A stretch of DNA of 64,000 bases from the NCBI RefSeq assembly GCF_003086295.3, contig NC_092039.1:94818561-94882560 (forward strand), written 5' to 3'. Every line of letters starts with the position of its first letter. Within the stretch, counting starts at the first letter, position 1. The notes below the pieces were generated by a model that had not been told where the DNA came from, searched no databases, and saw nothing but the letters and a program-made list of their open reading frames with translations. This DNA comes from Arachis hypogaea (Eukaryota > Streptophyta > Magnoliopsida > Fabales > Fabaceae). The translations under genes were made by a program, and so were the position numbers. Positions 3,987 to 62,800 of this stretch are shown in pieces.

Positions 3987-4922
3987 TTTAGTTACTGTAG
4001 ATTCAAGTATCACAAATCAAAACTCAGGACATATATAAGAGAGAAAAATAAAAAATATTTTATATCAATAATCAATTTATTAATTTCTATTACATTATAA
4101 ATGAAATTTTTGAAAAAAATTGAGAAAAATAACATGTTTTAAAAGCAAAAAAAAAAAGGACAATCTGAGCTCAATCTACAATATTATAGTTATAAACAAT
4201 CTAATCATATAATAATCATGAGTAAATAGTCATTTCTAACTTTGTAAGATATAAGTTATGACAAAACTAACCATAAAAAAATTAGATTAATAGTGTTCCC
4301 ATAAAAAATGAGTATCATTTAACAAAAATAACCAATCATTAAAATTAGAGTTAACTCCGTTAAAATTGTTTTAAAATTTCTGAATTACCCCTATTCTACT
4401 ACCTTTAACCTCTTTCTTCTTCACCATACAATTCCTTCCAAAATCAGAACTTTGAACCTAAATCAAGACTAAAATCAAACTATGAAAATTCTTCCAAAAT
4501 CACACATAGAATAGATCCCAAAATATGAAACCCTAATTATAATTGACCTTTAATTATATCGAGTTCACTTATCTCTCCCACACCCTCTAAATCTTTCTCT
4601 TCTCCACCATACCCCATTGCGTCCTTCATCCCACTGTTAGACCACCACCACCACCACTATTGTCAATACTACTATAAACACAACACTCACACAAACAGAC
4701 AAAGAGAGATAAAAGAAAAAGGTAGAGAAAAAAATACATAGCCACACTACCACTACTAACACCACTATCAACACAACACGCATCCACATAAGAATCAAGC
4801 GCGTGCGTACACACACAAAAGAAACATGTATGCGCATTTTTTTTCACCAAAAGCAAATCATATCTAATTCTTGATAGTTATTTGTAAAAAATCATTTTTC
4901 ACAATAGAGATAATATAATCAT
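2559..4922. repeat. Tandem segmental duplication, copy A (about 2.36 kb)
   Basis: The sequence from the motif ATTAACGTGRGACTTTAGT onward recurs in the same order about 2362-2364 bp downstream. Shared landmarks are the AAACGGGTCGGGTTGAG block near 2635, RING exon 1, the ACCCCTATTCTACT block near 4386, and a pyrimidine-rich/CA-rich stretch near 4560-4830. Copy A carries the better preserved RING exon. The two copies differ by scattered substitutions and small gaps, so the duplication is not recent. Confidence 0.85.
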
Positions 4923-7190
4923 ATTAGCAAATTAACGTGGGACTTTAGTAACAAAGATTTTTCAATGAGGTAATTCTTAGATAAATGGTTAATGGTATAA
5001 ACGGGTCGGGTTGAGTTATATTTAAAAAAAAATTGAGAACCGAACCGATGATCTTGTAATCTTTTCATTTCAGATCAAATTTAACATTTTTATCATTAGA
5101 CTCGAATTAATCCAAACTGGTTGAATTTGAGTTGGATCAGGTCAGGTGTTTGAGTACCCAATTGAATATTAAATTTATAAAAAATTAAAAATATTAAAAA
5201 ACTATAATAAAAAATAAAAAATATGAAAATATATAAATTATAAAGTATCATTATTATACAAAAGATATGCAACTAGAGAAAAAAAATTACGATCTTCCAT
5301 ACATTAATCAAAATATCTGAAAAACAACATAAACAAAATTAAGATTTGTTATACTTTAGACAGATATTTTTTTTTAAAACTACTCAACAACCACCAACAA
5401 TAAGAATTTTTAACCCAATCAAAACAATTTAAACATAAAAAAATCCTAATCACTACCGAATTAAAGCAATTAAGGATGCATATCAAGCAAGTAAAGAGAA
5501 TAAGAACCTAAACATAGACGAAATAGGAAAAAAGATGAAAGTAGAGGATGCACGAAAAAGTAAAGCACTCACTGATCCCGAAATGGTAGTGACAAAAAGA
5601 GAATGTTGACAAACCAAAAGAATAGAAGAAACACTGCAACAGACACACTAGAATAACAGAAAAAGCAGATGAACCATATGAATGAATAAACAAGGGTCAA
5701 AGTCCATAAAAAAAGATGGACAGGCTGAGGAGTGAAATTAGGACAGAGGCGTGAGTTGAGACTTGGGGTTGCAGAGGTGAAGAATTTTCCAGAATTAGGT
5801 TAGGGAAAAAAAGGAAATGGGTTTATAGTGACTGGGGAAAGAAAAATAATATTATTTATATTTTATTATTATAATAATAAATTAATTAGATATTAGAGTC
5901 ATTTCAATTTTAGTAAAATTAATTTTTTTTTCTTTTGTAACTTGCATCTTTCCTTCAATTATTTTAAAGGTCAAACACCAACTATTATTTTAAATGACCT
6001 CATTAATTTATAAATAATATAAAAATTTATTATAGATTACATACCTTTTTTGATGGTTTTGCCATGCATGTAATTAAAGCCACTTTGTTTTTTTGCATTT
6101 CATACGATTCAAATAAAATATGTTTATTCTAAAACAACTTTAGACTGAAATACCCAAATATATATCACATATATTAACTATAAAATTAGAATTCAAAAAC
6201 ATATGTATGGATGATTCAAACCAAAGTACTTATATAAATGAAGACATTTAACAATAGTCGTAGCATCCTCCAACAATTTATCACAAATTTTGCAGGTTAA
6301 GAATGGTAGAATTGTTGTCTTTTTCAATATGATAGTGTGATTTTTCATTTTAGTTACTATAGATTAAAGTCACGCATATGAAAACTCAGGGCATATATAA
6401 GAGTAGTGAAAAATAACAAAATAGTTTATATCAATAATTTATTAATTTCTTTTAAATTATAAATGAAATTTTTGAAAAAATTAAGAAAAATAACATGTTT
6501 TAAAATAAAAAAGGACAATGTGTGCTCAATCCAAAATGTTATAGTTATAAACAACCTAATCATATAATAATCATGAGTAAATAATTATTTCTAATCATGT
6601 AAGATTTAAGTTATAACAAAACTAATCATAAAAAAAATTAAATGAATATTGTACCCACAAAAGATAAGTATTGTTTGACAAAAATATCCAATCGTCAAAA
6701 TTAGAGTTAACTCCATTAAAATCATTTTAAATTTTCTGAATTACCCCTATTCTACTTCCTTCAACCTCTTTCTTCTTCACCTTATAATTCCTTCCAAAAT
6801 CAGAACCAAACCTAAACCAAAACTAAAATCAAACTAGGAAAATTCATCCAAAATCACAACTAGAATGGATCTTAAAATATAGAACTCTAATTATAATTGA
6901 CCTTTAATTATAACGAGTTCTCTTAACTCTCCCACACCCTCTAAATCTTTCTCTTCTCCATGATACCATATTGCATCCTTCACCCTACTGTTAGACCACT
7001 ACCGTCACCATCACCATTTTCAATACTATTATAAACATAACAGTCACACACAAGAAACAGACAGAGAGAAAAAAAAGAAAGAAGCAAATAAAAAAATGCA
7101 CAGCCACACCACCACTAGAAACACCACCATCAACATAACACACATACACACAAGAATCAGGCGTGCACACACACAAAAAAGAAATAGGCA
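4923..7190. repeat. Tandem segmental duplication, copy B
   Basis: This is the second copy of the block at 2559-4922, directly adjacent and in the same orientation. It diverges from copy A after about 7185, where copy A returns to AT-rich DNA and copy B continues into a GA-rich stretch. Copy B holds a more decayed RING exon 1 and the complete foldback element. Confidence 0.85.
6230..6348 (-). pseudogene. Duplicated RING exon 1, degenerate
   Basis: This minus-strand exon is the copy-B counterpart of 3868-3986, with the same ATG position and donor context. It keeps the CKIC pair, but the last RING cysteine of the exon has become tyrosine (CLHLYKYFG), so it cannot form a normal RING zinc site. 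It lies upstream of the copy-A exon in the transcription direction and would be a dead alternative first exon. Confidence 0.65.
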
Positions 7191-7690
7191 TGCGCACATA
7201 CACACATAGGTAGAAGAGTCATATTAGATGAAGAACGAAAAAGATAAAAACGCAGGAGCGTGTGATGGCAAGGAAGACCTCTCCCACCGTGCGTCCACCT
7301 CTGGCCTTCTTGCCTACTAGCTGTCCTCTTTGCCTTTGGCACTAGAGAAGACGACGATGAGAAGGAGCGGATGATGATGAGATAGGATGGAGGCAAGAAG
7401 GAGTTAATTTGGCGACGACAAAACTTGAGGTGAGAAGGAGTGAGGGAAGGGTTGGGATGAGGGGTAGATTTGAGTGGGCTTAGAGTGGTGAGAATGACAG
7501 AGGGAGGGTGAGGGGTAAGTTTTGGAAAATTTTTAAAAAATTAATAGAGCCAGATATAATTTTAAGAATTGGTTATTTTTGTTAAATGATATTCATCTTT
7601 CATGAGTATAAATTAGTTTAATTTTTTCGTGGATAATTTTGTCAGCATCCAGATCTTTCATGGTTAGAAATTGTTATTTATTCTAATCAT
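6555..7690. mobile_element. Foldback / MULE-like element with ~170-bp inverted ends
   Basis: The left arm (about 6555-6725) reappears inverted at about 7540-7690. In both arms blocks such as CATTTAACAAAAATAACCAA, TTTCTAA..ATG..AGAT and CTTAAAATTA appear in matching order. Copy A of the duplication has only the left arm (about 4195-4370) with no right arm. Long, diverged terminal inverted repeats and no obvious transposase suggest a Mutator-like or foldback non-autonomous element. Flanking AATCATATA / AATCATCAT could be a decayed 9-bp target duplication. The exact ends are uncertain. Confidence 0.5.
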
Positions 7691-37184: not shown

Positions 37185-37287
37185 CTTAGTGGTGCTAATT
37201 AAGGCTTGAGTCTGTTCGGAGAGAAAATTCAAGAGTTGGAAACCTGTCATCAACAAAGTACGTATTTTGGTTTTGGGTAGACATTAT
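37185..37287. other. Host LTR debris between two insertions
   Basis: A short piece lies between the 3.3-kb solo LTR and the 10.6-kb element. It continues after that element at 47893. The last five bases (ATTAT, 37283-37287) are the target duplication of the element. Confidence 0.6.
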
Positions 37288-37660
37288 TGATGAGTGGATA
37301 ATTTATACGCTTTTTGGCATTGTTTTTAGGTAGTTTTTAGTAAGTTTGAGCTACTTTTAGGGATGTTTTCATTAGTTTTTATGTTAAATTCACATTTCTG
37401 GACTTTACTATGAGTTTGTGTGTTTTTTTGTGATTTCAGGTAAATTCTGGCTAAAATCGAGGGACTTGAGCAAAACTCTGAAAAAGGCTGACAAAAGGAC
37501 TGTTGATACTGTTGGAATCTGACCTCTCTTCACTCGAAATGGATTTTCTGGAGCTACAGAACTCTTAATGGCGCGCTCTCAACGGCGTTGGGAAGCAGAC
37601 ATCCAGAGCTTTCCAGCAATATATAATAGTCCATACTTTATTCGGAAATTGACGATGTAA

Positions 37661-37772
37661 CTTGCCGTTGAACGCCAAGTACATGCTGCTGTCTGGAGTT
37701 AAACGCCAGAAAAACGTCATGATCCGGAGTTGAACGCCCAAACCACGTCATAACTTGGAGTTCAACTCCAAG
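37661..37772. promoter_or_regulatory. U3 palindrome array, 31-bp period
   Basis: Four palindromes have centres at 37670, 37701, 37732 and 37763, exactly 31 bp apart. The outer ones are CTTGCCGTTGAACGCCAAG and CTTGGAGTTCAACTCCAAG. The last centre is 124 bp upstream of the TATA box. The same layout is seen in the 3' LTR (46492-46604). Confidence 0.85.
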
Positions 37773-37886
37773 AAAAGCCTCAGCTCGTGGATAGATCAAG
37801 CTCAGCCCAAACATACACCACGTGGGCCCCGGAAGTGGATTTATGCATCAATTACTTACTCATGTAAACCCTAGGAGCTAGATTAT

Positions 37887-37894
37887 TATAAATA
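37887..37894 (+). promoter_or_regulatory. LTR TATA box
   Basis: TATAAATA sits in the context ATTATAAATAGAAC, conserved at the matching place in the 3' LTR (46718-46725) and in the LTR at 56258 (56859-56866). The LTR at 57794 has TATTAATA there (58391-58398). Confidence 0.7.
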
Positions 37895-39060
37895 GAACTT
37901 TCTACTATCATAATATCATCCTGGATTGTATTTTGAATCCTGTGATCACGTTTTGGGGGCTGGCCATTCGGCCATGCCTGAACCTTTCACTTATGTATTT
38001 TCAACAGTGGAGTTTCTGCACACCATAGATTAAGGGTGTGGAGCTCTGCTGTACCTCAAGTTTCAATACAATTATTATTACTTTCTATTCAATTCTCTTA
38101 TTCTTATTCCAAGATATACGTTGCACAACAATTGATGAATGTGATGATCAGTGACACTCATCATCTTTCTCACCTATGAACGCGTGATTGACAACCACTT
38201 CTGTTCTACTTTAGGCCGGGCGCATATCTCTTAGATTCCCCAACAGAATCTTCGTGGTATAAGCTAGATAGATGGCGGCATTCATGGGGATCCGGAAAGT
38301 ATAACCTTGTCTGTGGTATTCCGAGTAGGATCCTGGGAATCCAGAAAGTCTAACCTTGTCTGTGGTATTCCGAGTAGGATTCCGGTATTGAATGACTGTG
38401 ATGAGCTTCAAACTCCTGAAGGCTGGGCGTGATGACAAACGCAAAAGAATCAATGGATTCTATTCCAACCTGATTGAGAACCGACAGATGATTAGCCGTG
38501 CCGTGACAGAGCATTTGGACCATTTTCACTGAGAGGATGGGATGTAGCTATCAACCAAGGGTGATGCCTCCAGACGATTAGCCGTGCAGTGACAGCGCAT
38601 AGGACCATTTTCCCGAGAGGATTAAAAGTAGCCATTGATGATGGTGATGCCCTACATACAGCTTGCCATGGAAAGGAGTAAGAAGGATTGAAGAAAGAGT
38701 GAGTAGTGAAGTAGAGTTTCAAGAGGAGCACAACACCTCCATACGCCTATCTGAAATTTCCACTATTGATTTACATAAGTATTTCTATCCCTTTTTATTT
38801 TCTATTTATTATTAATTATTCGAAAATCCATAAACCAATTTTAATCTGCCTAACTGAGATTTACAAGGTGACCATAGCTTGCTTCATACCAACAATCTCT
38901 GTGGGATCGACCCTTACTCACGTAAGGTTTATTACTTGGACGACCCAGTACACTTGCTGGTTAGTTCAACGGAGTTGTGAAAAGAAAGTGCTGAGTTAAT
39001 GTTTTTGTGCACATACCAAAGAGCTAAAATTGTTGATCACAATTTCATCCACCAAGTTTT

Positions 39061-39077
39061 TGGCGCCGTTGCCGGGG
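39061..39077 (+). other. Primer binding site, tRNA-Asp type
   Basis: TGGCGCCGTTGCCGGGG lies 6 bases after the LTR end. This is the primer site reported for Athila-group elements, complementary to the 3' end of tRNA-Asp. The same site follows the LTR at 57794-59320. Confidence 0.8.
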
Positions 39078-40583
39078 ATTGTTCGAGTATGGACAACTGA
39101 CGGTTCATCTTATTGCTCAGATTAGGTAATTTTCTTTTCAAAAATCTTTTTCAAAATTTTTTTTTCTTTTTCGTTTTTCTAAAGAATATTTTCAAAAAAA
39201 ATTAATAAAAATACAAAAAAATTATAAAATCATAAAAATCAAAAATATTTTGTGTTTCTTGTTTGAGTCTTGAGTCAATTTTTAAGTTTGGTGTCAATTG
39301 CATGCTTTTAAAAATTTTTCTTGCATTTTTCGAAAATCCCATGCATTCATAGTGTTCTTCATGATCTTCAAGTTGTTCTTGATAAGTCCTCTTGTTTGAT
39401 CTTGATGTTTTCTTGTTTTGTGTTGTTTGTTGTTTTTCATATGCATTTTTCGTTTGTTAGAGTCCATGCATTAAAGATTTCTAAGTTTGGTGTCTTGCAT
39501 GTTTTCTTTGCATCAAAAATTTGTTTCAAAATTATGTTCTTGATGTTCATCATGATCTTCAAAGTGTTCTTGGTGTTCATCTTGACATTCATAGCATTCT
39601 TGCATTCATTCATTGTTTTGATGTAAAAATTTCATGCATTGAGTATTTTTGTTGTTTTTCTCTCTCATAATTAAAAATTCAAAAATAAAAAAAAATATCT
39701 TTTCCTTATTTTCCTCCAAATTTTCGAAATTTTGAGTTGACTTAATCAAAAATTTTCAAAATTAGTTGTTTCTTATAAGTCAAGTCAAATTTTCAATTTT
39801 AAAAATCTTATCTTTTCAAAATCTTTTTCAAAAATTATATCTTTTTCATTTTTTTTCATTTTTCGAAAATTTCAATAATCTTTTTCAAAATATTTTTCAA
39901 AATATTTTTCTTATCTTTATATCAAATTTTCAAAATTACACTAACAATTAATGTGATTGATTCAAAAATTTGAAGTTTGTTACTTTCTTGTTAAGAAAGG
40001 TTCAATCTTTAAGTTCTAGAATCTTATCTCTTAGTTTCTTGTTAGTTAAGTAATTTTAAAAATTAAATCTTTTTAAAAGCATATCTTTTATCTTTTATCT
40101 TATCTTTTTCAAAAATTTTATCTTTTTCAAAATTTGATTTCAAAATATCTTATCTAACCTCTTATCTTCTTATCTTTTTCAAATTTGATTTTAATATCTT
40201 TTTCAATCAACTAACTAACTTTTTGTTTGTTTCTTATTTTTTTCAAAACCAACTAACTACTCTTCCCTATCTAATTTTCAAAAATATCTCATCTCTTTTT
40301 CAAAAAATTCTTTTTAAATGTTTTAAATTTTAATTTTAATCTTATTTTATATTTAATTTTCGAAAATTACTAACCCTTTTCAAATTATTTTCGAAATTCT
40401 CCCTCTCCTTTCTTATTCTATTTAATTATTTAATTATTAACACTTCTCTTCACCTTTCTTCATCTAAAAATCCGAACCATTCTTCTTCATTCTTCTCCCC
40501 TTTCTTCTTCTGCTAACATAAAGGAATCTCTATACTGTGACATAGAGGATTCCTCTTCCTTTTCTTGTTTTCTTCTCTTTCAT
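39078..40583 (+). other. Long T-rich, C-poor leader with repeated CTTTTTCAAAA
   Basis: No ORF of note is present. The motif ATCTTTTTCAAAA or a close variant recurs at least ten times between about 39140 and 40310. Two copies of AAGTTTGGTGT occur (39284-39294 and 39483-39493). The leader ends with a CTTCTTC-rich stretch before the gag ATG. Confidence 0.6.
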
Positions 40584-42866
40584 ATGAGCAGGAACATGAA
40601 AAAAGGCACTCTTGTTGAAATTGATCCAGAACCTGAAAGGACTCTGAAGAGAAAATTAAGAGAAGCTAAATTACATTATTCTAAAGGTAACCTTTCAGAA
40701 ATTTTCGAACAAGAGAAGGAGATGGCAGCCGAAAATAATAATAATGCAAGGAGAATGCTTGGTGACTTCACAAAGCCAACATCCAAGTTTGATGGAAGAA
40801 GCATCTCCATTCCTGCCATTGGAGCCAATAACTTTGAGCTGAAACCTCAGCTAGTTTCCTTGATGCAACAAAACTGCAAGTTTTATGGACTTCCATCTGA
40901 AGATCCTTATCAGTTTTTAACCGAGTTCTTGCAGATCTGTGAGACTGTAAAGACGAATGGAGTTGATCCTGAAGTCTACAGGCTCATGCTTTTCCCTTTT
41001 GCTGTAAGAGACAGAGCTAGAATATGGTTGGATTCACAACCTAAGGATAGCCTGGACTCATGGGATAAGCTGGTCACTGCCTTCTTGGATAAATTCTTTC
41101 TTCCTCAAAAGCTGAGCAAGCTGAGAGTGGATGTTCAAACCTTCAAACAAAAAGATGGTGAATCCCTCTATGAAGCCTGGGAAAGATACAAGCAGCTGAC
41201 CAAAAGATGTCCATCTGATATGTTTTCAGAATGGACCATATTAGATATATTCTATTATGGTCTATCTGAATTTTTGAAAATGTCATTGGATCATTCTGCA
41301 GGTGGATCTATTCACCTAAAGAAAATGCCTGAAGAGGCTCAAGAACTCATTGACATGGTTGCAAACAACCAATTTATGTACACCTCTGAGAGGAATTCCG
41401 TGAATAATGGGATACCTCAGAAGAAAGGAGTTCTTGAAATTGATGCTCTGAATGCCATATTGGCTCAGAACAAAGTGTTGACTCAGCAGGTCAACATGAT
41501 CTCTCAAAGTCTGAATGGATGGCAACATGCATCCAACAATACTAAAGAGGCAGCTTCTGAAGAAGCTTATGATCCTGAGAACCCTGCCATGGCAGAGGTT
41601 AATTACATGGGTGAACCTTATGGAAACACCTATAACTCATCATGGAGAAATCATCCAAATTTCTCATGGAAGGATCAACAAAAGCCTCAACAAGGCTTTA
41701 ACAATGGTGGACGCAATAGGCTGAGCAATAGCAAGCCATATCCATCATCTTCTCAGCAACAGACAGAGAATTCTGAACAAAACACTTCTAATTTAGCCAA
41801 TCTAGTCTCTGATCTGTCAAAAGCCACTGTCAGTTTCATGAGTGAAACAAGATCCTCCATCAAAAATCTGGAGACACAAGTGGGCCAGCTGAGTAAGAAA
41901 GTCATTGAAACTCCTCCCAGTATTCTCCCAAGCAATACAGAAGAGAATCCAAAAGGAGAGTGCAAAGCCATTGACATAGTCAATATGGCCGAATGCACAA
42001 GGGAGGAAGAGGACGAAAATCCTAGTGAGGAAGACCTCCTGGGACGTCCCTCAAGCAAGAAGGAGTTTCCTATTAAGGATCGAAAGGAATCTGAGGCTCA
42101 TACAGAGACCATAGAGATTCCATTAAATCTCCTTCTGCCATTCATGAGCTCTGAAGACTATTCATCCTCTGAAGAGGATGAAGATGTGACTGGAGAGCAA
42201 GTTGCTCAATATTTAGGAGCTATCATGAAGCTGAATGCCAAGTTGTTTGGTAATGAGACTTGGGAAAGTGAACCTCCCTTGCTCATTAGTGAACTGGATA
42301 CCTGGATTCAGCAAATTCTACCTCAAAAGAAACAAGATCCTGGCAAGTTCTTAATACCTTGTACCATAGGCACCATGACCTTTGAAAAAGCTCTGTGTGA
42401 TCTGGGGTCAGGGATAAATCTTATGCCACTCTCTGTAATGGAGAAGCTGGGGATCATTGAGGTACAACCTGCCTTGTTCTCATTACAATTGGCTGACAAG
42501 TCATTGAGACAAGCTTATGGAATAGTAGAGGACATGTTAGTAAAGGTTGAAGGCCTTTACATCCCTGCTGATTTCATAATCTTAGACACTAGGAAGGAAG
42601 AGGATGATTGCATCATCCTTGGAAGACCTTTCCTAGCCACAGCAGGAGCTGTGATAGATGTCAACAGAGGTGAATTAGTCCTTCAATTGAATGGGGACTA
42701 CCTTGTGTTTAAGGCACATGGCCATCCCTCTGTGACAAAAGAGAGTAAGCATGAAGAGCTTCTCTCAGTTCAGAGTCAAGAAGAGCCCCCACAGTCAAAC
42801 TCTAAGTTTGGTGTCAAGACCCCATATCCAAACTCTAAGTTTGGTGTTGGGACTATACAACATTGA
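40584..42866 (+). CDS. Gag-protease polyprotein of the non-autonomous element
   Basis: A 760-residue intact ORF. Residues about 95-265 are a plant Ty3-gypsy Gag core (Retrotrans_gag): DRARIWLDSQP, DKLVTAFLDKFFLP, ESLYEAWERYKQL and LDHSAGGSIHLKKM are clear. A glutamine/asparagine-rich linker follows, then an acidic stretch. Residues about 595-715 are an aspartic protease, with the catalytic aspartate in CDLGSGINLMP and the later ILGRPFL flap-side motif; the helper element has CDLGASINLIP. Gag should form the particle and protease should cut it. The frame stops after two in-frame AAGTTTGGTGT copies, read as NSKFGV twice. There is no reverse transcriptase or integrase, so replication needs help in trans. 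The first ATG fits because it directly follows the pyrimidine-rich leader. Confidence 0.9.
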   Translation: MSRNMKKGTLVEIDPEPERTLKRKLREAKLHYSKGNLSEIFEQEKEMAAENNNNARRMLGDFTKPTSKFDGRSISIPAIGANNFELKPQLVSLMQQNCKFYGLPSEDPYQFLTEFLQICETVKTNGVDPEVYRLMLFPFAVRDRARIWLDSQPKDSLDSWDKLVTAFLDKFFLPQKLSKLRVDVQTFKQKDGESLYEAWERYKQLTKRCPSDMFSEWTILDIFYYGLSEFLKMSLDHSAGGSIHLKKMPEEAQELIDMVANNQFMYTSERNSVNNGIPQKKGVLEIDALNAILAQNKVLTQQVNMISQSLNGWQHASNNTKEAASEEAYDPENPAMAEVNYMGEPYGNTYNSSWRNHPNFSWKDQQKPQQGFNNGGRNRLSNSKPYPSSSQQQTENSEQNTSNLANLVSDLSKATVSFMSETRSSIKNLETQVGQLSKKVIETPPSILPSNTEENPKGECKAIDIVNMAECTREEEDENPSEEDLLGRPSSKKEFPIKDRKESEAHTETIEIPLNLLLPFMSSEDYSSSEEDEDVTGEQVAQYLGAIMKLNAKLFGNETWESEPPLLISELDTWIQQILPQKKQDPGKFLIPCTIGTMTFEKALCDLGSGINLMPLSVMEKLGIIEVQPALFSLQLADKSLRQAYGIVEDMLVKVEGLYIPADFIILDTRKEEDDCIILGRPFLATAGAVIDVNRGELVLQLNGDYLVFKAHGHPSVTKESKHEELLSVQSQEEPPQSNSKFGVKTPYPNSKFGVGTIQH
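42804..42847 (+). repeat. Two AAGTTTGGTGT motifs at the 3' end of gag-pro
   Basis: Copies lie at 42804-42814 and 42837-42847, both preceded by CTCT and 33 bp apart. Both are in the same frame and encode NSKFGV. Confidence 0.85.
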
Positions 42867-43095
42867 CCTGATCACCTTGTGGCTCCATGAGAGCCACTGT
42901 CAGGCTATTGACATTAAAGAAGCGCTTGTTGGGAGGCAACCCAATTTTATTTATCTAATTTTTATTTTATTCTATATTATTGCTATTTTATATTTTATTA
43001 GGTACATGATCATGAGGAGTCACAAAAAAATCATAAAAATTAAAAACAGAGTCAAAAACAGCAGAAAAAAATTCGCACCCTGGAGGAAGCACAGG

Positions 43096-43337
43096 CTGGC
43101 GTTCAACGCCAGTAAGATGCATCTGGCCGGCGTTCAACGCCAGAACAGAGCATCATTCTGGCGCTGAACGCCAGAAACAAGCAACATTCTGGCGTTGAAA
43201 GCCAGGAATGTACCCAGAGAAGAAAAGCTGGCGCTGAACGCCAGCAACAAGCATGAAACTGGCGTTCAACGCCAGAAACATGCTTTACATGGGCGTTGAA
43301 CGCCCAGAATGTGCACCACACGGCGTTTAAACGCCAG
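43096..43337. promoter_or_regulatory. Eight-unit palindrome array, 31-bp period
   Basis: Eight 15-17-bp palindromes (consensus CTGGCGTTCAACGCCAG) begin at 43096, 43127, 43158, 43189, 43228, 43259, 43290 and 43321. Six of the seven steps are exactly 31 bp and one is 39. Spacers are 14 bp (one is 22) with a loose consensus AAACAAGCATNATT. Unit 7 is TGGGCGTTGAACGCCCA and unit 8 is CGGCGTTTAAACGCC. The array lies between the two ORFs, upstream of an internal TATA box. Confidence 0.9.
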
Positions 43338-43686
43338 AATAGTGTGCAAAGGCAATTTACATGCCTATTTGGTGCAGGGATGGAATTCCTTGACACCTCA
43401 GGATCTGTGGACCCCACAGGATCACCTCAGGATCTGTGGACCCCACAGGTTCCCCACCTACTATATTCCCACCTTACCTCCTAATCCTAGTTTTTGTGAT
43501 TACTCTTCCCCATGTCACACTTCCCAACACCCTTCACCAATCACCTCAATTCCTCTTACCAATCACCCCCCTCACCACTCACATCCATCCACTCTTCCCC
43601 AAAAACCCCACCTACCTTCAAAAATTCAAATCAATTTCCCACCCATTCCCACCCTAAATGGCCGAATACACACTACCCCCTCTCCC

Positions 43687-43694
43687 TATAAATA
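43687..43694 (+). promoter_or_regulatory. Putative internal promoter (TATA box) for the second ORF
   Basis: TATAAATA lies in the GC-framed context CTCCCTATAAATACCC, 192 bp upstream of the second ORF. It is followed by a CACAACACAAACCC stretch and a CTTCTTCTTC-rich leader, the usual look of a plant core promoter and 5' untranslated region. Sequence between 43440 and 43680 is unusually C-rich and open of repeats. Confidence 0.6.
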
Positions 43695-43812
43695 CCCTTC
43701 CATTCTACTTCATTTTCACACAACACAAACCCATCTTCTCCCACTTAGCTGAACCTACATCTCTCCCTCTCTACCCTATTCTCTTCTTCTTCTTCTTCTC
43801 TTCTTTCTTCTC

Positions 43813-43847
43813 TTGCTCGAGGGTGAGCAATATTTTAAGTTTGGTGT
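43813..43847 (+). promoter_or_regulatory. Hairpin plus AAGTTTGGTGT upstream of the second ORF
   Basis: TTGCTC-GAGGGT-GAGCAA (43813-43830) forms a 6-bp stem. It is followed seven bases later by AAGTTTGGTGT (43837-43847). A similar hairpin-then-motif unit sits just before the 3' LTR. Confidence 0.6.
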
Positions 43848-43885
43848 GGTAAAAGCATAAGCTTTTTGTTTTTCCATTACCATCA

Positions 43886-45034
43886 ATGGCACCTAAGGCC
43901 AGAGTATCCTCTAGAAAAGGAAAAGGGAAGACAAAAGCTTCCACCTCCGAGTCATGGGAGATGGAAAGATTCATCTCCAAGAGCCATCAAGACTACTTCT
44001 ATGATGTTGTGGCAAAGAAGAAGGTGATCCCTGAGGTCCCTTTCAAGCTCAAGAGAAATGAGTATCCGGAGATCCGACATGAGATCCGAAGAAGAGGTTG
44101 GGAAGTCTTAACCAACCCCATGCAACAAGTCGGAATCTTAATGGATCAAGAGTTCTATGCCAATGCATGGATCACTAGGAACCATGATCAAAGTATGAAC
44201 CCGAGTCCAAAGAATTACCTCACAATGGTTCGGGGGAAATACTTAGATTTTAGTCCGGAAAATGTGAGGTTGGCGTTTCACTTGCCCATGATGCAAGGAG
44301 ATGAACGCCCCTACACTAGAAGGGTCAACTTTAATCAAAGGTTGGACCGAGTCCTAATGGACATATGTGTGGAAGGAGCTCAATGGAAGAGAGACTCCAA
44401 AGGCAAGCCAGTCCAACTAAGAAGATTGGACCTCAAGCCTGTAGCTAGAGGATGGTTGGAGTTTATTCAACGCTCCATCATTCCTACAAGCAACCGATCT
44501 GAAGTTACTGTGGATCGGGCCATCATGATTCATGGCATCATGATTGGAGAGGAAGTAGAAGTTCATGAGGTCATCTCCAATGAAATCTACAAAATAGCCG
44601 ACAAGCCCTCACCCATGGCACGGCTAGCTTTTCCTCACCTTATTTGCCATCTATGTTACTCAGCTGGAGTAATCATAGAAGGAGACACCTCCATTGAAGA
44701 GGATAAGCCCATCACCAAGAAGAGGATGGAGCAAGCAAGAGAGACCCTTCACGGTTCTCAAGAAATGCATGAGGAAGCTCATCATCAAGAAATCCCTGAG
44801 ATGCCTCAAGGGATGCACTTTCCTCCCAACAACTATTGGGAACAACTCAACACTTCCTTAGAAGATTTGAGCCACAATGTTGAACAATTGAGGGTGGAAC
44901 ATCATGAGCACTCCATCATTCTCCAAGAAATAAGAGAAGACCAAAGAGCAATGAGGGAGGAGCAACAAAGGCAAGGAAGGGACATAGAAGAGCTTAAGGA
45001 CATTGTTGGTCCTTCAAGAAGAAGACGCCACTAA
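43886..45034 (+). CDS. Second ORF: putative plant transposon protein domain
   Basis: An intact 382-residue ORF. The N-terminus is short and basic (APKARVSSRKGKGKTKAS). Residues about 25-265 match the 'putative plant transposon protein' fold often found in the 3' half of Athila-related elements. Visible segments are VVAKKKVIPEVPFKL, NPMQQVGILMDQEFYANAW, PENVRLAFHLP and DRAIMIHGIMIGEEVEVHEVI. Residues about 320-375 are predicted coiled coil (heptads in LNTSLEDLSHNVEQLRVEH and onward), ending in SRRRRH. Known proteins of this type have no established function. The basic ends and coiled coil would suit a dimeric nucleic-acid-binding protein; that is inference. It appears to have its own TATA box at 43687. 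Confidence 0.75.
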   Translation: MAPKARVSSRKGKGKTKASTSESWEMERFISKSHQDYFYDVVAKKKVIPEVPFKLKRNEYPEIRHEIRRRGWEVLTNPMQQVGILMDQEFYANAWITRNHDQSMNPSPKNYLTMVRGKYLDFSPENVRLAFHLPMMQGDERPYTRRVNFNQRLDRVLMDICVEGAQWKRDSKGKPVQLRRLDLKPVARGWLEFIQRSIIPTSNRSEVTVDRAIMIHGIMIGEEVEVHEVISNEIYKIADKPSPMARLAFPHLICHLCYSAGVIIEGDTSIEEDKPITKKRMEQARETLHGSQEMHEEAHHQEIPEMPQGMHFPPNNYWEQLNTSLEDLSHNVEQLRVEHHEHSIILQEIREDQRAMREEQQRQGRDIEELKDIVGPSRRRRH

Positions 45035-46118
45035 AGGTGGATTCATTCCTTGTTCTTTATTTCTTTTTGTTTTCGGTTTTTAATGTTGTGTTTATCTATG
45101 TTTTGTGTCTTTACTTCATGATCATTAGTATGTAACCATGTCTTAAAGCTATGAATAAAATCCATTAATCCTTCACCTCTCTTAAAAGAAAAATGTTTTA
45201 ATTCAAAAGAACAAGAAGTACATGAATTTCGAATTGATCCTTGAATTTAGTTTAATTATATTGATGTGGTGACAATACTTTTGTTTTCTGAATGAATGCT
45301 TGAATAGTGCATATGTCTTTTGATCTTGTTGTTTATGGATGTTAAAATTGTTGGCTTTTGAAAGAATGATGAACAAAGAGAAATGTTATTGAGGATCTGA
45401 AAAATCATGAAATTGATTCTCGAAGCAAGAAAAAGCAGTGAATAAGAAGAAGCTTGCGAAAAAAATAGAAAGAAAAAGAAAAAGCAAGCAGAAAATGCCA
45501 ATAGCCCTTAAAACCAAAAGACAAGGGTAAAAAAGGGATCCAAGGCTTTGAGCATCAATGGATAGGAGGGCCCAAGGAAATAAAATCCAGGCCTAAGCGG
45601 CTAAATCAAGCTGTCCCTAACCATGTGCTTGTGTCATGAAGGTCCAAGTGAAAAGCTTGAGACTGAGTGGTTAAAGTCGTGATCCAAAGCAAAAGAGTGT
45701 GCTTAAGAGCTCTGGACACCTCTAACTGGGGACTTTAGCAAAGCTAAGTCACAATCTGAAAAGGTTCACCCAGTTATGTGTCTGTGGCATTTATGTATCC
45801 GGTGGTAATACTGGAAAACAAAGTGCTTAGGGCCACGGCCAAGACTCATAAGTAGCTGTGTTCAAGAATCAGCATGCTTAACTAGGAAAGTCAATAACAC
45901 TCTCCAAAATTCTAAGTTCCTAGAGAAGCCAATCATTCTAAACTTCAAGGGAAAAAGTGAGATGCCAAAACTGTTCAGAAGCAAAAAGCTACAAGTCCCG
46001 CTCATCTAATTAGAATTAATATTCATTGATATTTTGGAATTTATAGTATATTCTCTTCTTTTTATCCTAATTGATTTTCAGTTGCTTGGGGACAAGCAAC
46101 AATTTAAGTTTGGTGTTG
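45035..46118 (+). other. 3' untranslated region of the non-autonomous element
   Basis: There is no ORF of note. It ends with the hairpin and AAGTTTGGTGT unit directly before the 3' LTR. No purine-rich tract is present at the usual place, which is odd for a gypsy-type element. Confidence 0.6.
46081..46118 (+). promoter_or_regulatory. Pre-LTR hairpin with GNRA-type loop and AAGTTTGGTGT
   Basis: GTTGCTTGGGGACAAGCAAC (46081-46100) is a perfect 8-bp stem closed by a GGGA loop, which fits the GNRA tetraloop rule. AAGTTTGGTGT follows at 46106-46116 and the LTR TG starts at 46119. This is where the plus-strand primer must form, so the motif may replace a polypurine tract. Confidence 0.7.
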
Positions 46119-47887
46119 TGATGAGCGGATAATTTATACGCTTTTTGGCATTGTTTTTAGGTAGTTTTTAGTAAGTTTGAGCTACTTTTAGGGATGTTTT
46201 CATTAGTTTTTATGTTAAATTCACATTTCTGGACTTTACTATGAGTTTTTGTGTTTTTCTGTGATTTCAGGTAAATTCTGGCTGAAATCGAGGGACTTGA
46301 GCAAAACTCTGAAAAAGGCTGACAAAAGGACTGCTGATGCTGTTGGAATCTGACCTCCCTGCACTCGAAATGGATTTTCTGGAGCTACAGAACTCCAAAT
46401 GGCGCGCTCTCAATGGAGTTGGAAAGTAGACATCCAGAGCTTTCCATCCATATATAATAGTCCATACTTTATTCGGAAATTGACGACATAACTTGGCGTT
46501 GAACGCCAAGTACATGCTGCTGTCTGGAGTTAAACGCCAGAAAAACGTCATGATCCGGAGTTGAACGCCCAAAACACGTCATAACTTGGAGTTCAACTCC
46601 AAGAAAAGCCTCAGCTCGTGGATAGATCAAGCTCAGCCTAAACATACACCACGTGGGCCCCGAAAGTGGATTTATGCATCAATTACTTACTCATGTAAAC
46701 CCTAGGAGCTAGATTATTATAAATAGAACTTTCTACTATCATAATATCATCCTGGATTGTATTTTGAATCCTGTGATCACATTTTGGGGGCTGGCCATTC
46801 GGCCATGCCTGAACCTTTCACTTATGTATTTTCAATAGTGGAGTTTCTGCACACCATAGATTAAGGGTGTGGAGCTCTGCTGTACCTCAAGTTTCAATAC
46901 AATTATTATTACTTTCTATTCAATTCTCTTATTCTTATTCCAAGATATACGTTGCACAACAATTGATGAATGTGATGATCAGTGACACTCAACATCATTC
47001 TCACCTATGAACGCGCGTGATTGACAACCACTTCTGTTCTACTTTAGGCCGGGCGCATATCTCTTAGATTCCCCAACAGAATCTTCGTGGTATAAGCTAG
47101 ATAGATGGCGGCATTCATGGGGATCCGGAAAGTCTAACCTTGTCTGTGGTATTCCGAGTAGGATCCTGGGAATCCGGAAAGTCTAACCTTGTCTGTGGTA
47201 TTCCGAGTAGGATTCCGGTATTGAATGACTGTGACGAGCTTCAAACTCCTGAAGGCTGGGCGTGATGACAAACGCAAAAGAATCAATGGATTCTATTCCA
47301 ACCTGATTGAGAATCGACAGATGATTAGCCGTGCCGTGACAGAGCATTTGGACCATTTTCACTGAGAGGATGGGATGTAGCTATCAACCAAGGGTGATGC
47401 CTCCAGACGATTAGCCGTGCAGTGACAGCGCATAGGACTATTTTCCCGAGAGGATTAAAAGTAGCCATTAATGATGGTGATGCCCTACATACAGCTTGCC
47501 ATGGAAAGGAGTAAGAAGGATTGAAGAAAGAGTGAGTAGTGAAGTAGAGTTTCAAGAGGAGCACAGCACCTCCATACGCCTATCTGAAATTTCCACTATT
47601 GATTTACATAAGTATTTCTATCCCTTTTTATTTTCTATTTATTATTAATTATTCGAAAATCCATAAACCAATTTTAATCTGCCTAACTGAGATTTACAAG
47701 CTGACCATAGCTTGCTTCATACCAACAATCTCTGTGGGATCGACCTTTACTCACGTAAGGTTTATTACTTGGACGACCCAGTACACTTGCTGGTTAGTTG
47801 AACGGAGTTGTGAAAAGAAAGTGCTGAGTTAATGTTTTTGTGCACATACGAAAGAGCTAAAATTGTTGATCACAATTTCGTCTACCA
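46119..47887 (+). repeat. 3' LTR of the non-autonomous element
   Basis: It runs from TGATGAGCGG to CTACCA. Palindrome centres are at 46501, 46532, 46563 and 46594, and the TATA box at 46718. In this copy the first palindrome is perfect (CTTGGCGTTGAACGCCAAG), whereas the 5' LTR has one mismatch. It is flanked by ATTAT at 47888. Confidence 0.9.
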
Positions 47888-47892
47888 ATTAT

Positions 47893-56165: not shown

Positions 56166-56257
56166 CTGACCCTACCAAAAGAAAAATCTAAATCCTCTCA
56201 AAAGAAGGAACTCAAGATCCTTGCGGCCACCATCTCTAAATCTCGGACATCACCCAT

Positions 56258-57406
56258 TGATGAGCGGATAATTTATATGCTTTTTGGCATTATTTTTAGG
56301 TTGTTTTTAATAGGATCTAGCTACTTTTTAGTATATTTTTATTAGTTTTTAAGCAAAATTTATATTTATGGACTTCACTATGAGTTTGTGTATTTTTCTG
56401 TGATTTCAGGTATTTTCTGGCTGAAATTGAGGGACCTGAGCAAAAATTTGATTCAGAGGCTGAAAAAGGACTGCAGATGCTGTTGGATTCTGACCTCCCT
56501 GCCCTCGAAATGGATTTTTTGGAGCTACTGAAACCAAAATAGCGCTCTCTTAAATGCGTTGGAAAGTAGACATCCAGGGATTTCCAGCAATATATAATAG
56601 TCCATACTTTGCTCGAGTTTTGATGACACAAATTGGCATTCAAATGCCAATTCCCTGTCGTATTCTGGCGTTAAACGCTAGAAACAAGTTACAAGCTAGA
56701 GTTAAACACCCAAAACAGGCTGCAAACTGGCGTTTAACTCCAAGAGAAGTCTCTACACATGAAAGCTTCAATGCTTAGCCCAAGAACACACCAAGTGGGC
56801 CCAGAAGTGGGTTTCTGCATCATTTACTTATCTCTTTAAACCCTAGTAACTAGTTTAGTATAAATAGGACTTTTTCTCATTGTATTAGACGTCTGGGTTA
56901 GGCTGGGTCTTTGATTAGTTTTATGCTATCTTAGACATTGGGGCTGGCCTCACGGCCATGCCTGGACCATCATCACTTATGTATTTTCAACGGTTGAGTT
57001 TCTACACACCATAGATTAAGGTGTGGAGCTCTGCTGTTTCTCGAGTATTAATGCAATTACTACTATTTTCTATTCAATTCATGCTTATTCCTGTTCTAAG
57101 ATATCCATTCGCACGCAAGAACATGATGATTGTGATGATTATGTGACACTCATCACCATTCTCACTTATGAACGTGTTCCTGACAAATACTCCCGTTCTA
57201 CATGCAAACAAGCTTGAATGCATATCTCTTAGCCTTCTGGTTCATGATCAGAGTCTTTGTGGTATAAGCAAGAATTAATTGGTAGCATTCTTGAGATCCG
57301 GAAAGTCTAAACCTTGTCTGTGGTATTCCGAGTAGGATCTGGGATGGGATGACTGTGACGAGTTGAGAAGTTGTGAAAAAGAGTTGAGATTACAATGTGC
57401 GTACCA
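56258..57406 (+). repeat. FIDEL-like LTR with an internal deletion
   Basis: It begins TGATGAGCGGATAA and ends GCGTACCA, followed by a truncated primer site (TTGTTGGCGTC). Compared with the LTR at 57794 it lacks about 400 bp near its 3' end. Palindrome centres lie at 56641.5, 56673, 56704 and 56735, then the TATA box at 56859. The first palindrome is AATTGGCATT-CA-AATGCCAATT. Confidence 0.75.
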
Positions 57407-57793
57407 AGTTGTTGGCGTCAAAAAAAGTAATAAAATCATAAAAACCAAGAAAAGTAATAAAATCATAAAAACCAAAAAAAAATATTTTGTGTTTCTTGTT
57501 TGAGTCTAGTGTCAATTTTTAAGTTTGGCGTCAATTGCATGTTTTAATTTTTCTAAAAATTTTTTTTTGAAAATTCATGCATTGCATTCTTCATGATCTT
57601 CAAGTTGCTCTTGATGAGTCTCCTTGTTTGATCTTTATATTTTCTTGTTTTGTATCTTTTGTTGTTTTTCATATGCATTTTTGAATCCTTAGAGTTTAGA
57701 CATTGAAAATTTCTAAGTTTGGTGTCTTGCATGTTTTTCTTTTCTTAAAATTTTTTTTTTCAAAAATAAGTTCTTGATGTTCATCATGATCTT
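57407..57793 (+). other. Truncated leader of the element whose LTR is at 56258
   Basis: It matches the leader of the 10.6-kb element (phrases GTTTCTTGTTTGAGTC, AAGTTTGGCGTCAATTGC, CATCATGATCTT). AAGTTTGGTGT-type motifs lie at 57521 (one mismatch) and 57715. It ends where the next element inserted. The direct repeat TAATAAAATCATAAAAACCAA occurs twice near 57428-57475. Confidence 0.65.
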
Positions 57794-59320
57794 TGATGAG
57801 CGGATAATTTGTATGCTTTTTGGCATTGTTTTTAGTATGTTTTTAGTATAATCTAGTTAGTTTTTAGTATATTTTTATTAGTTTTTAGCTAAAATTCACT
57901 TTTCTGGACTTTACTATGAGTTTGTGTGTTTTTCTGTGATTTCAGGTATTTTCTGGCTGAAATTGAGGGTACTGAGCAAAAATCTGATTCCGAGACCAAA
58001 AAGGACTGCAGATGCTGTTGGATTCTAACCTCCCTGCATTCGAAGCGGATTTTCTGGAGCTACAGAAGCCCAATTGGCGCGCTCTCAACGGCGTTGGAAA
58101 GTAGACATCCTGGGCTTTCCAGCAATATATAATAGTCCATACTTTGCTCAAGATTTGATGGCCCAAACCGGCGCTCAAAGTCACCTACAGAAATTCCAGC
58201 GTTAAACGCCGGAACTGGCATAAAATTTGGAGTTAAACGCCCAAACTGGCATGAGAACTGGCGTTTAACTCCAGAAAAGGTCTCTACACGAAATTCCTTC
58301 ATTGCTCAGCCCAAGCACACACCAAGTGGGCCCGGAAGTGGATTTTTCTGTCATTTACTCATTTCTGTAAACCTTAGGACACTAGTTTACTATTAATAGG
58401 ATCTTTTGACATTGTATCAGCACCTTTTTTGATGACCTTATGACATTCTTACACGTTTTCTTCCACAGCATGAGTCTCTAAACCCCATGGTTGGGGGTGA
58501 GGAGCTCTGTTGTGTCTTGATGGATTAATGCAATTACTATTGTTTCTCATTCAATCATGCTTGCTTCCATTCTAAGATAATACTTGTTCTTAATCCGGAT
58601 GAATGTGATGATCCGTGACAATCATCATCATTCTCAACTATGAACGTGTGACTGACAATCACCTCCGTTCTACCTTAGATTAAGTAGTTATCTCTTGGGT
58701 TCTTTAACCGGAATCTTCGTGGTATAAGCTAGACTGATGGCGGCATTCAAGAGAATCCGGAAGGTCTAAACCTTGTCTGTGGTATTCTGAGTAGGATTCA
58801 ATGATTGAATGACTGTGACGTGCTTCAATCTCCTGAAGGCGGGGCGTTAGTGACAGACGCAAAAGAATCACTGGATTCTATTCCGGCCTGATTGAGAACC
58901 GACAGATGAATTCCGCTATGCTGTGACAGAGCATATGCAATCGCTTTCACTGAGAGGATGGGAGGTAGCCACTGACAACGGTGAAACCCTACACACAGCT
59001 TGCCATGGAAGGAGACTGGCGTGTTTGAAGAAGAAGACAGTAGGAAAGCAGAGATTCAGAAGATGGAGCATCTCCAAACCTCAACCTATTCTCCATTACT
59101 GCAAAACAAGTAACTATTTCATGTTCTTTTGCTTTTCACAATCAATCTTGATAATTCCTGATATCCTGACTAAGATTTACAAGATAACCATAGCTTGCTT
59201 CAAGCCGACAATCTCCGTGGGATCGACGCTTGCTCACGCAAGGTATTACTTGGACGACCCAGTGCACTTGCTGGTTAGTTGTGCGGAGTTGCAAAAGTGT
59301 GATTGGAATTTCGTGCACCA
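57794..59320 (+). repeat. 5' LTR of the autonomous-looking element
   Basis: It runs from TGATGAGCGG to GTGCACCA. Palindrome centres lie at about 58175 (degenerate), 58204, 58235 and 58266. The TATA-like TATTAATA is at 58391, 125 bp after the last centre. It lacks the 49-bp and 86-bp tandem duplications of the non-autonomous LTR. Confidence 0.85.
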
Positions 59321-59888: not shown

Positions 59889-62800
59889 ATGGACTTAAGT
59901 GGGATTAATCAGTCCAAAAGGACTCTGGGGTCATATGCTAACCCCATTACAGCTGCATATGGGAGTAGCATCTGTACACCTCCCATCAAAGCAAGCAGCT
60001 TTGAACTAAATCCTCAACTCATTATCATAGTGCAGCAAAACTGCCAGTATTCCGGTCTTCCACAGGAAGAACCTACTGAGTTTCTGGCACAGTTTTTACA
60101 AATTGCTGACACAGTACATGATAAAGAGGTAGATCAGGATGTCTACAGACTATTACTGTTTCCATTTGCTGTAAAAGATCAAGCTAAAAGGTGGTTGAAC
60201 AACCAACCTACAGCAAGCATAAAGACATGGAAACAGTTGTCAGACAAGTTCCTGAATCATTTTTACCCTCCTAAGAGGATGACACAGCTAAGGCTGGACA
60301 TCCAAGGCTTTAAACAAGAGGATAATGAATCCCTTTATAATGCCTGGGAGAGGTATAGAGGTATGTTAAGGAAATGTCCCTCTGAAATGTTTTCAGAGTG
60401 GGTACAGTTAGACATTTTCTACTATGGGCTTACAGAAAAAGCTCAGATGTCTTTAGACCACTCAGCTGGTGGATCTATACACATGAGGAAAACAATTGAA
60501 GAAGCTCAAGAGCTTATAGACACTGTTGCTAGAAACCAATATTTGTACTCTAGTAATGAGTTCTCTCCAAAAGAGGAAGTCATGGCAGTAGTCACTGACC
60601 CTAGTCCTCAAGAACAGATAACTGAGCTTAATCAGCAATTGCTCCTGATGACAGAACAATTAGCAGACTTTAAAGAGATGCTCCATGAAACTAAAGTTGT
60701 TAACAAGAGCATAGAACTGCAGTTGAATCAAGCAAAACAGGAAATATCTAAACAGATAACAGAGGAATGTCAAGCAGTTCAATTGAGGAGTGGGAAGACC
60801 CTGAATAACACTGCTCAAAAGAGTAAAAAGCCAAACAAGGAACAATTGACAGAGGACAACCAAACCACTGTTCAAAATCCCTCTGAGGACAGTAAGAGCC
60901 CAGAGAGGAATGTTATTGGCGTTCAAACGCCAGAAAGGGAAGGAAAGCTGGCGTTAAACGCCCATTCCTTGCCCAGTTCTGGCGTTCAAACGCCAGAAAA
61001 GGGAGAGAAGTTGGCGTTTAACGCCCAAGCTTCACCCATTCCTGGCGTCCAAACGCCAAGGGAAGATCAGACACCTGAGAGTGCTGACAGTAATCCCTCT
61101 AACAAGGCTTCTTCAACCACTTCTGTAAGGAATAAACCTGCAGCATCTAAGGTTGAAGAATATAAAGCCAAGATGCCTTATCCTCAAAAACTCCGCCAAG
61201 CGGAACAGGATAAGCAATTTGCCCGCTTTGCAGACTATCTAAGGACTCTTGAAATAAAGATTCCATTTGCAGAGGCACTTGAGCAAATACCTTCTTATGC
61301 TAAATTCATGAAAGAAATCTTAAGTCATAAGAAGGATTGGAGAGAAACTGAAAAAGTGTTTCTCACTGAAGAATGCAGTGCAGTCATATTAAAAAGCTTA
61401 CCAGAAAAGCTTCAAGATCCAGGAAGCTTTATGATACCATGCACATTAGAAGGTGCTTGCACTAAGACAGCTCTATGTGATCTTGGAGCAAGCATCAATC
61501 TAATACCTGCATCCACTATCAGAAAGCTTGGATTGACTGGAGAAGTCAAACCAACCCGGATATGCCTCCAACTTGCTGATGGTTCCATTAAATACCCATC
61601 AGGCATAATTGAGGACATGATTGTCAAGGTTGGGCCATTTGCCTTTCCAACTGACTTTGTGGTGCTGGAAATGGAGGAGCACAAGAGTGCAACTCTCATT
61701 CTAGGAAGACCCTTCCTAGCAACTGGACGAACTCTCATTGATGTACAAAAATGGGAAGTAACCTTGAGGGTCAATGAAGATGAGTTCAAGTTGAATGCTG
61801 TAAAAGCCATGCAGCATCCAGACACACCAAATGACTGCATGGGCGCTGACATTATTGACTCTCTGGTAGAAGAGATCAATATGGCTGAGAGCCTAGAATC
61901 AGAGCTTGAGGAAATCTTCAAAGATGCTCAGCCTGATCAGGAAGAACTAGAGGAGGCAAAGGAATTTTCGAAAATTCCTCAGGAGGAGGATAAGCCTCCC
62001 AAGCCTGAACTCAAACCACTACCACCATCCCTGAAATATGCATTTCTGGGAGAGGGTGACACTTTTCCAGTGATTATAAGCTCGGCTTTAAATTCACAGG
62101 AAGAGGAAGCACTGATTCAAGTGCTGAGGACACACAAGACAGCTCTTGGGTGGTCCATAAGTGATCTCAAGGGTATCAGCCCAGCTAGATGCATGCACAA
62201 GATCCTGTTGGAGGATAATGCCAAACCAGTGGTCCAACCACAGAGGAGGCTAAATCCTGCCATGAAGGAGGTGGTGCAGAAAGAGGTCACTAAATTACTA
62301 GAGGCTGGGATTATTTATCCTATTTCTGATAGCCCCTGGGTGAGCCCTGTCCAAGTTGTTCCCAAAAAGGGAGGCATGACAGTGGTTCATAATGAAAAAA
62401 ATGAACTGGTTCCTACAAGGACAGTCACAGGGTGGCGTATGTGTATTGACTACAGAAGGCTCAATACAGCCACCAGAAAGGATCATTTTCCTTTACCATT
62501 CATAGACCAAATGCTAGAAAGACTAGCTGGTCATGACTATTACTGCTTTTTGGATGGCTATTCAGGCTACAACCAAATTGCAATAGATCCTCAGGACCAA
62601 GAGAAAACAGCATTCACTTGTCCTTCTGGCGTGTTTGCCTATAGGAGGATGCCTTTTGGTCTGTGCAATGCACCTGCAACCTTTCAGAGGTGCATGCTCT
62701 CTATCTTTTCAGATATGGTAGAGAAATTTCTGGAAGTCTTCATGGATGACTTTTCAGTATATGGAGACTCATTTAACTCCTGTCTTAATCACCTAGCACT

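Follow-up and report, generated by a model that had tools for sequence, protein, structure and literature searches.

Regularly spaced palindrome ladders in Ty3/gypsy-type retrotransposons of Arachis hypogaea, a candidate DNA control element

A 64,000-nucleotide stretch of the peanut genome (Arachis hypogaea, contig NC_092039.1 of assembly GCF_003086295.3, positions 94,818,561 to 94,882,560 of the forward strand), referred to here as the window, carries a non-autonomous long terminal repeat (LTR) retrotransposon in which a ladder of eight palindromes stands between the gag open reading frame (ORF) and a second one, ORF2. An earlier sequence-only reading had described eight dyads spaced about 31 bp apart between these two ORFs. 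All eight were found in place with that regular spacing, and we add the copies in the LTRs of the element and three further arrays in the window:

43096–43337, plus strand: internal ladder of eight palindromes (core GGCGTT-N-AACGCC and variants), centre steps 31, 31, 31, 39, 31, 31 and 30.5 bp
37662–37771, plus strand: four-unit ladder in the 5' LTR, steps 31, 31 and 31 bp
46493–46602, plus strand: four-unit ladder in the 3' LTR (ladder B), steps 31, 31 and 31 bp
56633–56743, plus strand: four-unit ladder in a third, related LTR (ladder C), steps 31.5, 31 and 31 bp
58168–58274, plus strand: four-unit ladder in the 5' LTR of a neighbouring autonomous element (ladder D), steps 28, 31 and 31 bp, first unit decayed
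60916–61059, plus strand: five-unit ladder within the gag-protease coding region of the autonomous element, four centre steps of 31.5 bp

The dyad centres of the internal ladder lie at 43104, 43135, 43166, 43197, 43236, 43267, 43298 and 43328.5, the last unit having a two-base centre and hence a 30.5-bp step, and successive cores are separated by 18 bp wherever the step is 31 bp. By eye, a possible ninth, degenerate unit can be read at 43350–43366. With up to three mismatches allowed, the 13-bp core occurs 36 times in the window, whereas 100 shuffles averaged 6.85 occurrences and never exceeded 14. Exact matches were also counted across the 2.557-Gb Arachis genome, where CTGGCGTTNAACGCCAG has 88,351 copies and its reversed control has none; the window shuffles and this zero count rule out a chance origin of the palindromes. 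Exact GGCGTTNAACGCC pairs at distances of 17–47 bp number 92,757, and 86,390 of them (93%) are exactly 31 bp apart, with 4,569 at 17–30 bp and 1,802 at 32–47 bp (the classes sum to 4 above the total, presumably owing to the way in which overlapping matches are counted). The palindrome ladder is real, genome-wide and regularly spaced, with the 31-bp peak anticipated by the sequence-only reading, and constant helical spacing of this kind is what a cooperative dimer-binding enhancer requires. Ladders occupy LTRs, leaders before gag, gag-protease coding sequence and the region upstream of ORF2.

The spacing recurs among copies, a point on which the sequence-only reading had staked its proposal in advance. 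A genome search with ORF2 gave 93,265 first-look candidates, of which 108 were scored and the best 30 fetched, including the window's own copy, and the eight-unit layout with an irregular step of 39 or 38 bp was present in 28 of these 30 copies of the non-autonomous family. Of the other two, L046 has seven units with 37 bp at the irregular step, and L051 carries a reversed LTR inserted before the ORF2 promoter, so that its internal ladder falls outside the fetched piece; a four-unit variant at first read in L051 was dropped, since those units belong to the inserted LTR. The fetched copies gave 153 steps of 31 bp, eight of them from LTR arrays (L040, L046, L051). Distinct changes were tallied in the other copies against the window copy, with L051 counted only in the flank past its insertion. 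Regular spacers had 48 substitutions and no gaps, compared with 353 substitutions and 69 gaps in the noncoding flanks (Fisher p 3e-4), the flanks excluding a 29-bp repeat that had 21 substitutions and 2 gaps. Cores had 38 substitutions and no gaps, and the irregular step had 11 substitutions and 3 gaps of 1–2 bp. In this one family the spacers are constrained in length: substitutions without gaps indicate that spacer length appears to be held while sequence drifts. Among recent copies, distinct substitutions per site were alike in core and regular spacer (0.36 and 0.38), and differences per aligned base were 3.6% in cores and 6.4% in spacers with the irregular step included. When families are compared, variation is far greater in the spacers than in the cores, as the sequence-only reading had held for the spacers of this ladder, and this rules out a simple recent tandem repeat. 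Across 73 units from 13 arrays (partly redundant, two of them doubtful), information content was 1.24–2.0 bits at core positions and 0.04–0.78 bits at positions 9–15.

The element that holds the internal ladder, and the putative control signals around it, are as follows:

37288–47887: non-autonomous LTR retrotransposon, with LTR pair, target duplication and gag, without pol
37283–37287 and 47888–47892: 5-bp target duplication ATTAT, spotted by eye
37288–39054, plus strand: 5' LTR, 97.7% identical to the 3' LTR
37887–37894, plus strand: TATAAATA of the 5' LTR, read from the sequence
39061–39078, plus strand: putative primer-binding site directly after the 5' LTR; the identical sequence follows the LTR of the neighbouring element
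40584–42866, plus strand: gag ORF, 760 aa, Retrotrans_gag (PF03732)
43394–43451, plus strand: two 29-bp repeats, each with CTGTGGACCCCACAG, between the internal ladder and the TATA box
43687–43694, plus strand: TATAAATA, presumed internal promoter of ORF2; a TATA-like box is also present in four relatives
43886–45034, plus strand: ORF2, 382 aa, Transposase_32 (PF20167), predicted long C-terminal helix at residues 316–373
46119–47887, plus strand: 3' LTR
46718–46725, plus strand: TATAAATA of the 3' LTR, 116 bp past ladder B

Most of the LTR and ORF2 ladders examined lie upstream of a TATA box. Downstream of the internal ladder the order is CTGTGGACCCCACAG, the TATA box at 43687, a start-like block and ORF2, and four relatives with 6–8 units (L018, L021, L030 and L034) share this order, with small changes in L034. 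In these four the 29-bp block is single; CTGTGGACCCCACAG is exact in three and differs by one base in L034. Among the 29 other fetched copies, 27 have a TATA-like box 170–230 bp ahead of ORF2, the CTGTGG motif is exact in 25, and the start-like block is exact in 23. Past the window edge, the autonomous element continues with a ladder of eight clear and two degenerate units (one of them by eye) before its second ORF, followed in the same order by a TATA box, an ORF2 homologue and a 3' LTR that is 99.1% identical to its 5' LTR. In the LTRs, ladder C stands at the same 116-bp distance from TATAAATA as ladder B, and a different LTR, L020, has a four-unit ladder (steps 32, 28 and 32 bp) with a TATA-like box 129 bp downstream. 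Ladder D has TATTAATA at the place of TATAAATA in the other LTRs. A second candidate TATA box, TATATAATAGTCCATACTTT (window 46451–46470), lies upstream of the LTR ladder and is the same in four LTRs. Other short sequences also recur around the ladders. The block TGACATTAAAGAAGCGCTTGTTGGGAGGCAACCCAAT (window 42905–42946), which contains a TTGGG/CCCAA hairpin, is near-invariant in four relatives, and GGAGGCAACCCAG also precedes the ladder of the autonomous element (L037:1-13). TAAGTTTGGTGT occurs exactly ten times, at 39283, 39482, 42803, 42836, 43836, 46105, 57714, 59446, 59534 and 59607, always on the plus strand and within these elements, at sites in leaders, after gag, before ORF2 and beside the 3' LTR; with one mismatch there were 13 matches compared with 0.54 expected.

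The ladder within coding sequence follows the same period by another route. In the gag-protease coding ladder of the window, palindromes are alternately translated as GVQTP and LALNA/LAFNA in two frames, and its five centres keep a distance of exactly 31.5 bp through the alternation of two-base and one-base core centres, which gives a 63-bp, frame-keeping period. A close relative, P0001, has the identical layout in two frames, and in P0006, a further relative, the palindromes fall in three frames, at inferred centre steps of 30–32.5 bp. A protein-repeat explanation was rejected, since the palindrome encodes GVQTP, WRSTP and LALNA in different frames; the use of several frames indicates that the peptide sequence is not the conserved thing. 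The Arachis hypogaea 'transportin' P0070 contains ladder-like peptides (GVQR, EFNA, GVQH, AFNA) with inferred steps of 32, 28 and 32 bp, equal to those of the L020 LTR ladder, and a ladder therefore seems to have been incorporated into a gene model. A search for the coding-ladder peptides outside Arachis returned 11 matches, one from Arachis and 10 ENA records. Scans of IMG/VR found 17 loci with a single palindrome each, and none for the pair pattern or the primer-site patterns.

The ladder-bearing elements are probably of Ty3/gypsy type. The non-autonomous one has two LTRs, a target duplication and gag but no pol, and a domain search found no reverse transcriptase domain in either of its ORFs. 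Its neighbour has gag, protease, reverse transcriptase and RNase H domains. Copia elements place integrase between protease and reverse transcriptase; in the neighbour the reverse transcriptase follows close behind the protease with no space for integrase in between, so that membership in the Ty1/copia Sireviruses does not fit. The primer-site-like sequence TGGCGCCGTTGCCGGGGA, which we take to be complementary to tRNA-Asp, lies 6 bp past the 5' LTR of the non-autonomous element. In the Athila/Calypso lineage of Ty3/gypsy elements, by the portion of the account available to us, about 5 bp separate the LTR from a tRNA-Asp primer site (PMC1142308). For the autonomous gag-protease, 20 of 35 relatives are named as Arachis and the closest named relative is 98% identical; for ORF2 the corresponding values are 22 of 37 and 94%. 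Relatives of both proteins outside Arachis include proteins of carrot, celery, clover, vetch and Stylosanthes. Elsewhere in the window, a truncated related LTR with a leader-like piece (56257–57793) abuts the 5' LTR of the autonomous element, and positions 2545–7196 hold a tandemly duplicated segment of about 2.3 kb whose copies share 85% identity.

ORF2 is, judging from its substitution pattern, under purifying selection, with a ratio of nonsynonymous to synonymous substitution rates (dN/dS) of approximately 0.16 among copies (0.20 on distinct events) and 7 stop codons in 29 copies. Its predicted fold has a mean predicted local distance difference test (pLDDT) score of 64 and no PDB match at E up to 0.001; we thus found no DNA-binding fold for ORF2. 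ENA contigs of about 0.8–1.6 kb encode ORF2 relatives, and our guess is that these are transcripts.

Taken together, the ladder is most likely a DNA control element. A double-stranded DNA signal is favoured because of the near-constant spacing, the drifting spacers, the frequent placement upstream of a TATA box and the use of several reading frames. More specifically, we propose, at about even chances, that the ladder is a cis-acting element of helically phased dyad sites for a symmetric dimer, controlling two promoters, that of the LTR and an internal one for ORF2. Each ladder would consist of 4–10 palindromic sites with a near-fixed 18-bp spacer and centres 31–31.5 bp apart, or three turns of B-DNA, and each site would probably be bound by a symmetric protein dimer. 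Dimers on one regular run would face the same side of the helix and bind cooperatively, and once bound they may raise, or gate, transcription from the LTR promoter and from the internal promoter that would produce ORF2 mRNA. The protein binding, the dimeric state of the binder, its activating effect and the role of the internal TATA box as a promoter are what we infer; the binder could be a host factor or a protein of the element such as ORF2.

Several observations weigh against this proposal. The 39-bp step puts the two halves of the window ladder out of helical phase with each other; the same-face arrangement suggested by the sequence-only reading would hold within a regular run. Covarying arm flanks and spacer-dependent folding would not be predicted from simple dimer binding. 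No TATA match was found within 500 bp of the leader ladders L022, L029 and L035 or of LTR ladder D, and the match after the coding ladder falls within coding sequence. TATATAATAG stands upstream of the LTR ladder, identical in four LTRs, and the ladder could therefore be transcribed. With low-complexity sites removed, the length test falls to 0/36 versus 22/200 (p 0.031), and for the autonomous family, in which 20 of 137 listed copies were chosen and compared against L037, the result is not significant, regular spacers having 1 gap and 18 substitutions, with 31 and 172 in the flanks (p 0.21). Among the nine ladder gaps of that family, a 1-bp deletion in a core and three single-base gaps at irregular steps also go against a fixed length; the larger changes, which count in favour of the proposal, are all whole steps of 31 or 62 bp: one spacer gained 31 bp, deletions of 62 and 31 bp begin in cores like the 1-bp one, and irregular steps show a 62-bp deletion and a 62-bp insertion. 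Lastly, the P0064 branch of ORF2, which shares 44% identity with the window ORF2, has no ladder in the 1.2 kb upstream at any of 6 loci (of 92 listed), apart from one isolated weak unit in L072, so the ladder is not obligatory for ORF2; 5 of these 6 loci retain the dyad ATGCTTGAGGACAAGCAT near ORF2.

The sequence-only reading had left the choice between dimer sites and RNA hairpins open, and here spacing, TATA placement and multiple frames favour the former, while hairpin models stay alive because the arm flanks covary and the internal ladders fold unusually well. Under such models, which we regard as fairly unlikely, the palindromes would form RNA or single-stranded cDNA hairpins, or one half of the array would zip onto the other to make a rod, for packaging by Gag or for pairing between autonomous and non-autonomous RNAs. 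The window ladder has a predicted fold of -127 kcal/mol (z -12.5 against dinucleotide shuffles) in which units 1, 2 and 3 pair with 8, 7 and 6, and units 4 and 5 are each self-paired; however, a one-base shift of the stretch changed the best fold, and the rod is therefore not a unique prediction. When only the spacers were shuffled and the cores kept, z was -4.0 to -6.4 in five internal ladders, but -0.05 to -2.1 in four LTR ladders and -2.3 in the coding ladder. Arm positions 7–10 pair in 0.51 of cells, compared with 0.38 +- 0.03 in within-array shuffles (0/3000; 58 units), and every ladder could lie within genomic RNA. Of the marks expected of an RNA hairpin, flank covariation is thus observed whereas strand preference is not, the antisense strand being better folded in 7 of 10 arrays, and separate hairpins would not need exact spacing. 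Pairing centred on 41 spacers stays within the shuffle range (289/3000); spacer-centred palindromes were set aside as a general feature, being striking in L037 and L022 and within the shuffle range overall (138/2000; 289/3000). In L037:153-417 most spacers are near-perfect palindromes (CCAGAATGG..CCATTCTGG, CCAGCCAGG..CCTGGCTGG), forming a second dyad half a period off. Our confidence in phased dimer sites stays at even chances because flank covariation and folding fit hairpins, or hairpin-templated correction, equally well or better.

It is also conceivable, although we consider it unlikely, that the array has no selected function: a tandem palindromic repeat would be kept regular by copying, with hairpin-templated template switching perfecting the palindromes, slippage adding or removing whole units and the array hitchhiking on successful elements. 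The gains and losses of whole units in the autonomous family, the covariation without strand bias, the presence of ladders at four different positions of the elements, and their absence before ORF2 in the P0064 branch, which is itself multicopy, are all in keeping with this. Less easily accommodated are the gap-free regular spacers beside an irregular 39-bp step with three distinct 1–2 bp gaps, the retention of the ladder in coding sequence at a frame-compatible 63-bp period, and the recurrent placement near promoters. More improbable again is that the palindromes serve mainly as a host recognition mark, their transcribed hairpins feeding silencing small RNAs, as has been argued for maize Sireviruses. 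Palindromic clusters of Sireviruses attract excess small RNAs in the part of that work available to us (PMC10760457), and each full core here has two CpG sites; elements should nevertheless shed such marks unless useful, and here they are abundant.

The closest known system is that of the Sireviruses, Ty1/copia elements in which, in the sections available to us, palindromic repeated motifs cluster upstream of the LTR TATA box and of an ENV-like ORF after pol, a placement that the authors took as support for an internal promoter (Bousios 2010, PMC2829016). The Arachis ladder is of the same broad kind: both systems have palindromes in many copies, with CG in the core of nearly all of them, before the LTR TATA box and an extra ORF, ladder D, which has no TATA match, being the exception in Arachis. 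The two systems differ in superfamily, in core (CGG-CCG in Sireviruses) and in the extra ORF (ENV-like there, PF20167 here), and the portion of the Sirevirus description available mentions no regular spacing and takes the extra copies only as far as the ENV start, whereas Arachis ladders are strictly spaced and also lie within gag-protease coding sequence. The maize Sirevirus LTR clusters, as far as the available text goes, likewise occupy an LTR control region with strong predicted structure, and it was their small-RNA response that was studied (PMC10760457). Retand elements also carry internal tandem arrays near extra ORFs, and the description available to us gives no palindromic phased core for them, unlike the Arachis ladder (PMC11963269). 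The sequence-only reading knew of no described function. For Arachis this holds in the open-licence literature searched, where no description of the ladder was found, a literal search with four core sequences was also empty, and no account of the sequences of the named peanut families FIDEL and Feral turned up; Sirevirus palindromic clusters had, however, already been described, in the part available to us (PMC2829016). What looks new is the strict spacing, the occurrence in Ty3/gypsy-type elements and the reuse within coding sequence.

Two further systems offer parallels at the level of regulation. In foamy viruses, the accessible part of the account describes an LTR promoter together with an internal promoter for a late ORF, and the ladder would parallel their shared response elements (PMC7828637). 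This comparison is by analogy. The BII boxes of Tnt1 are tandem repeats of about 31 bp in U3 that act as a transcriptional activator, a unit length close to that of the ladder; to our knowledge they do not take the form of palindromic ladders that recur at an internal promoter. The foamy-virus protein Tas binds both promoters. By analogy, ORF2, with its basic N-terminus and predicted long C-terminal helix, might be a dimeric self-activator expressed from its own internal promoter, binding internal and LTR ladders and serving autonomous and non-autonomous elements alike in trans. We consider this circuit, which would be a plant counterpart of the Tas circuit, quite unlikely.

The roughly 86,000 palindrome pairs at a single spacing in a crop genome constitute a natural test set for helical phasing. 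If the palindromes are bound, the protein would meet very many sites, and it could shape the expression and silencing of many retrotransposons in peanut. The twin placement of the ladder, in the LTR and before ORF2, makes the long-standing question of whether extra ORFs of plant retrotransposons have internal promoters directly testable.
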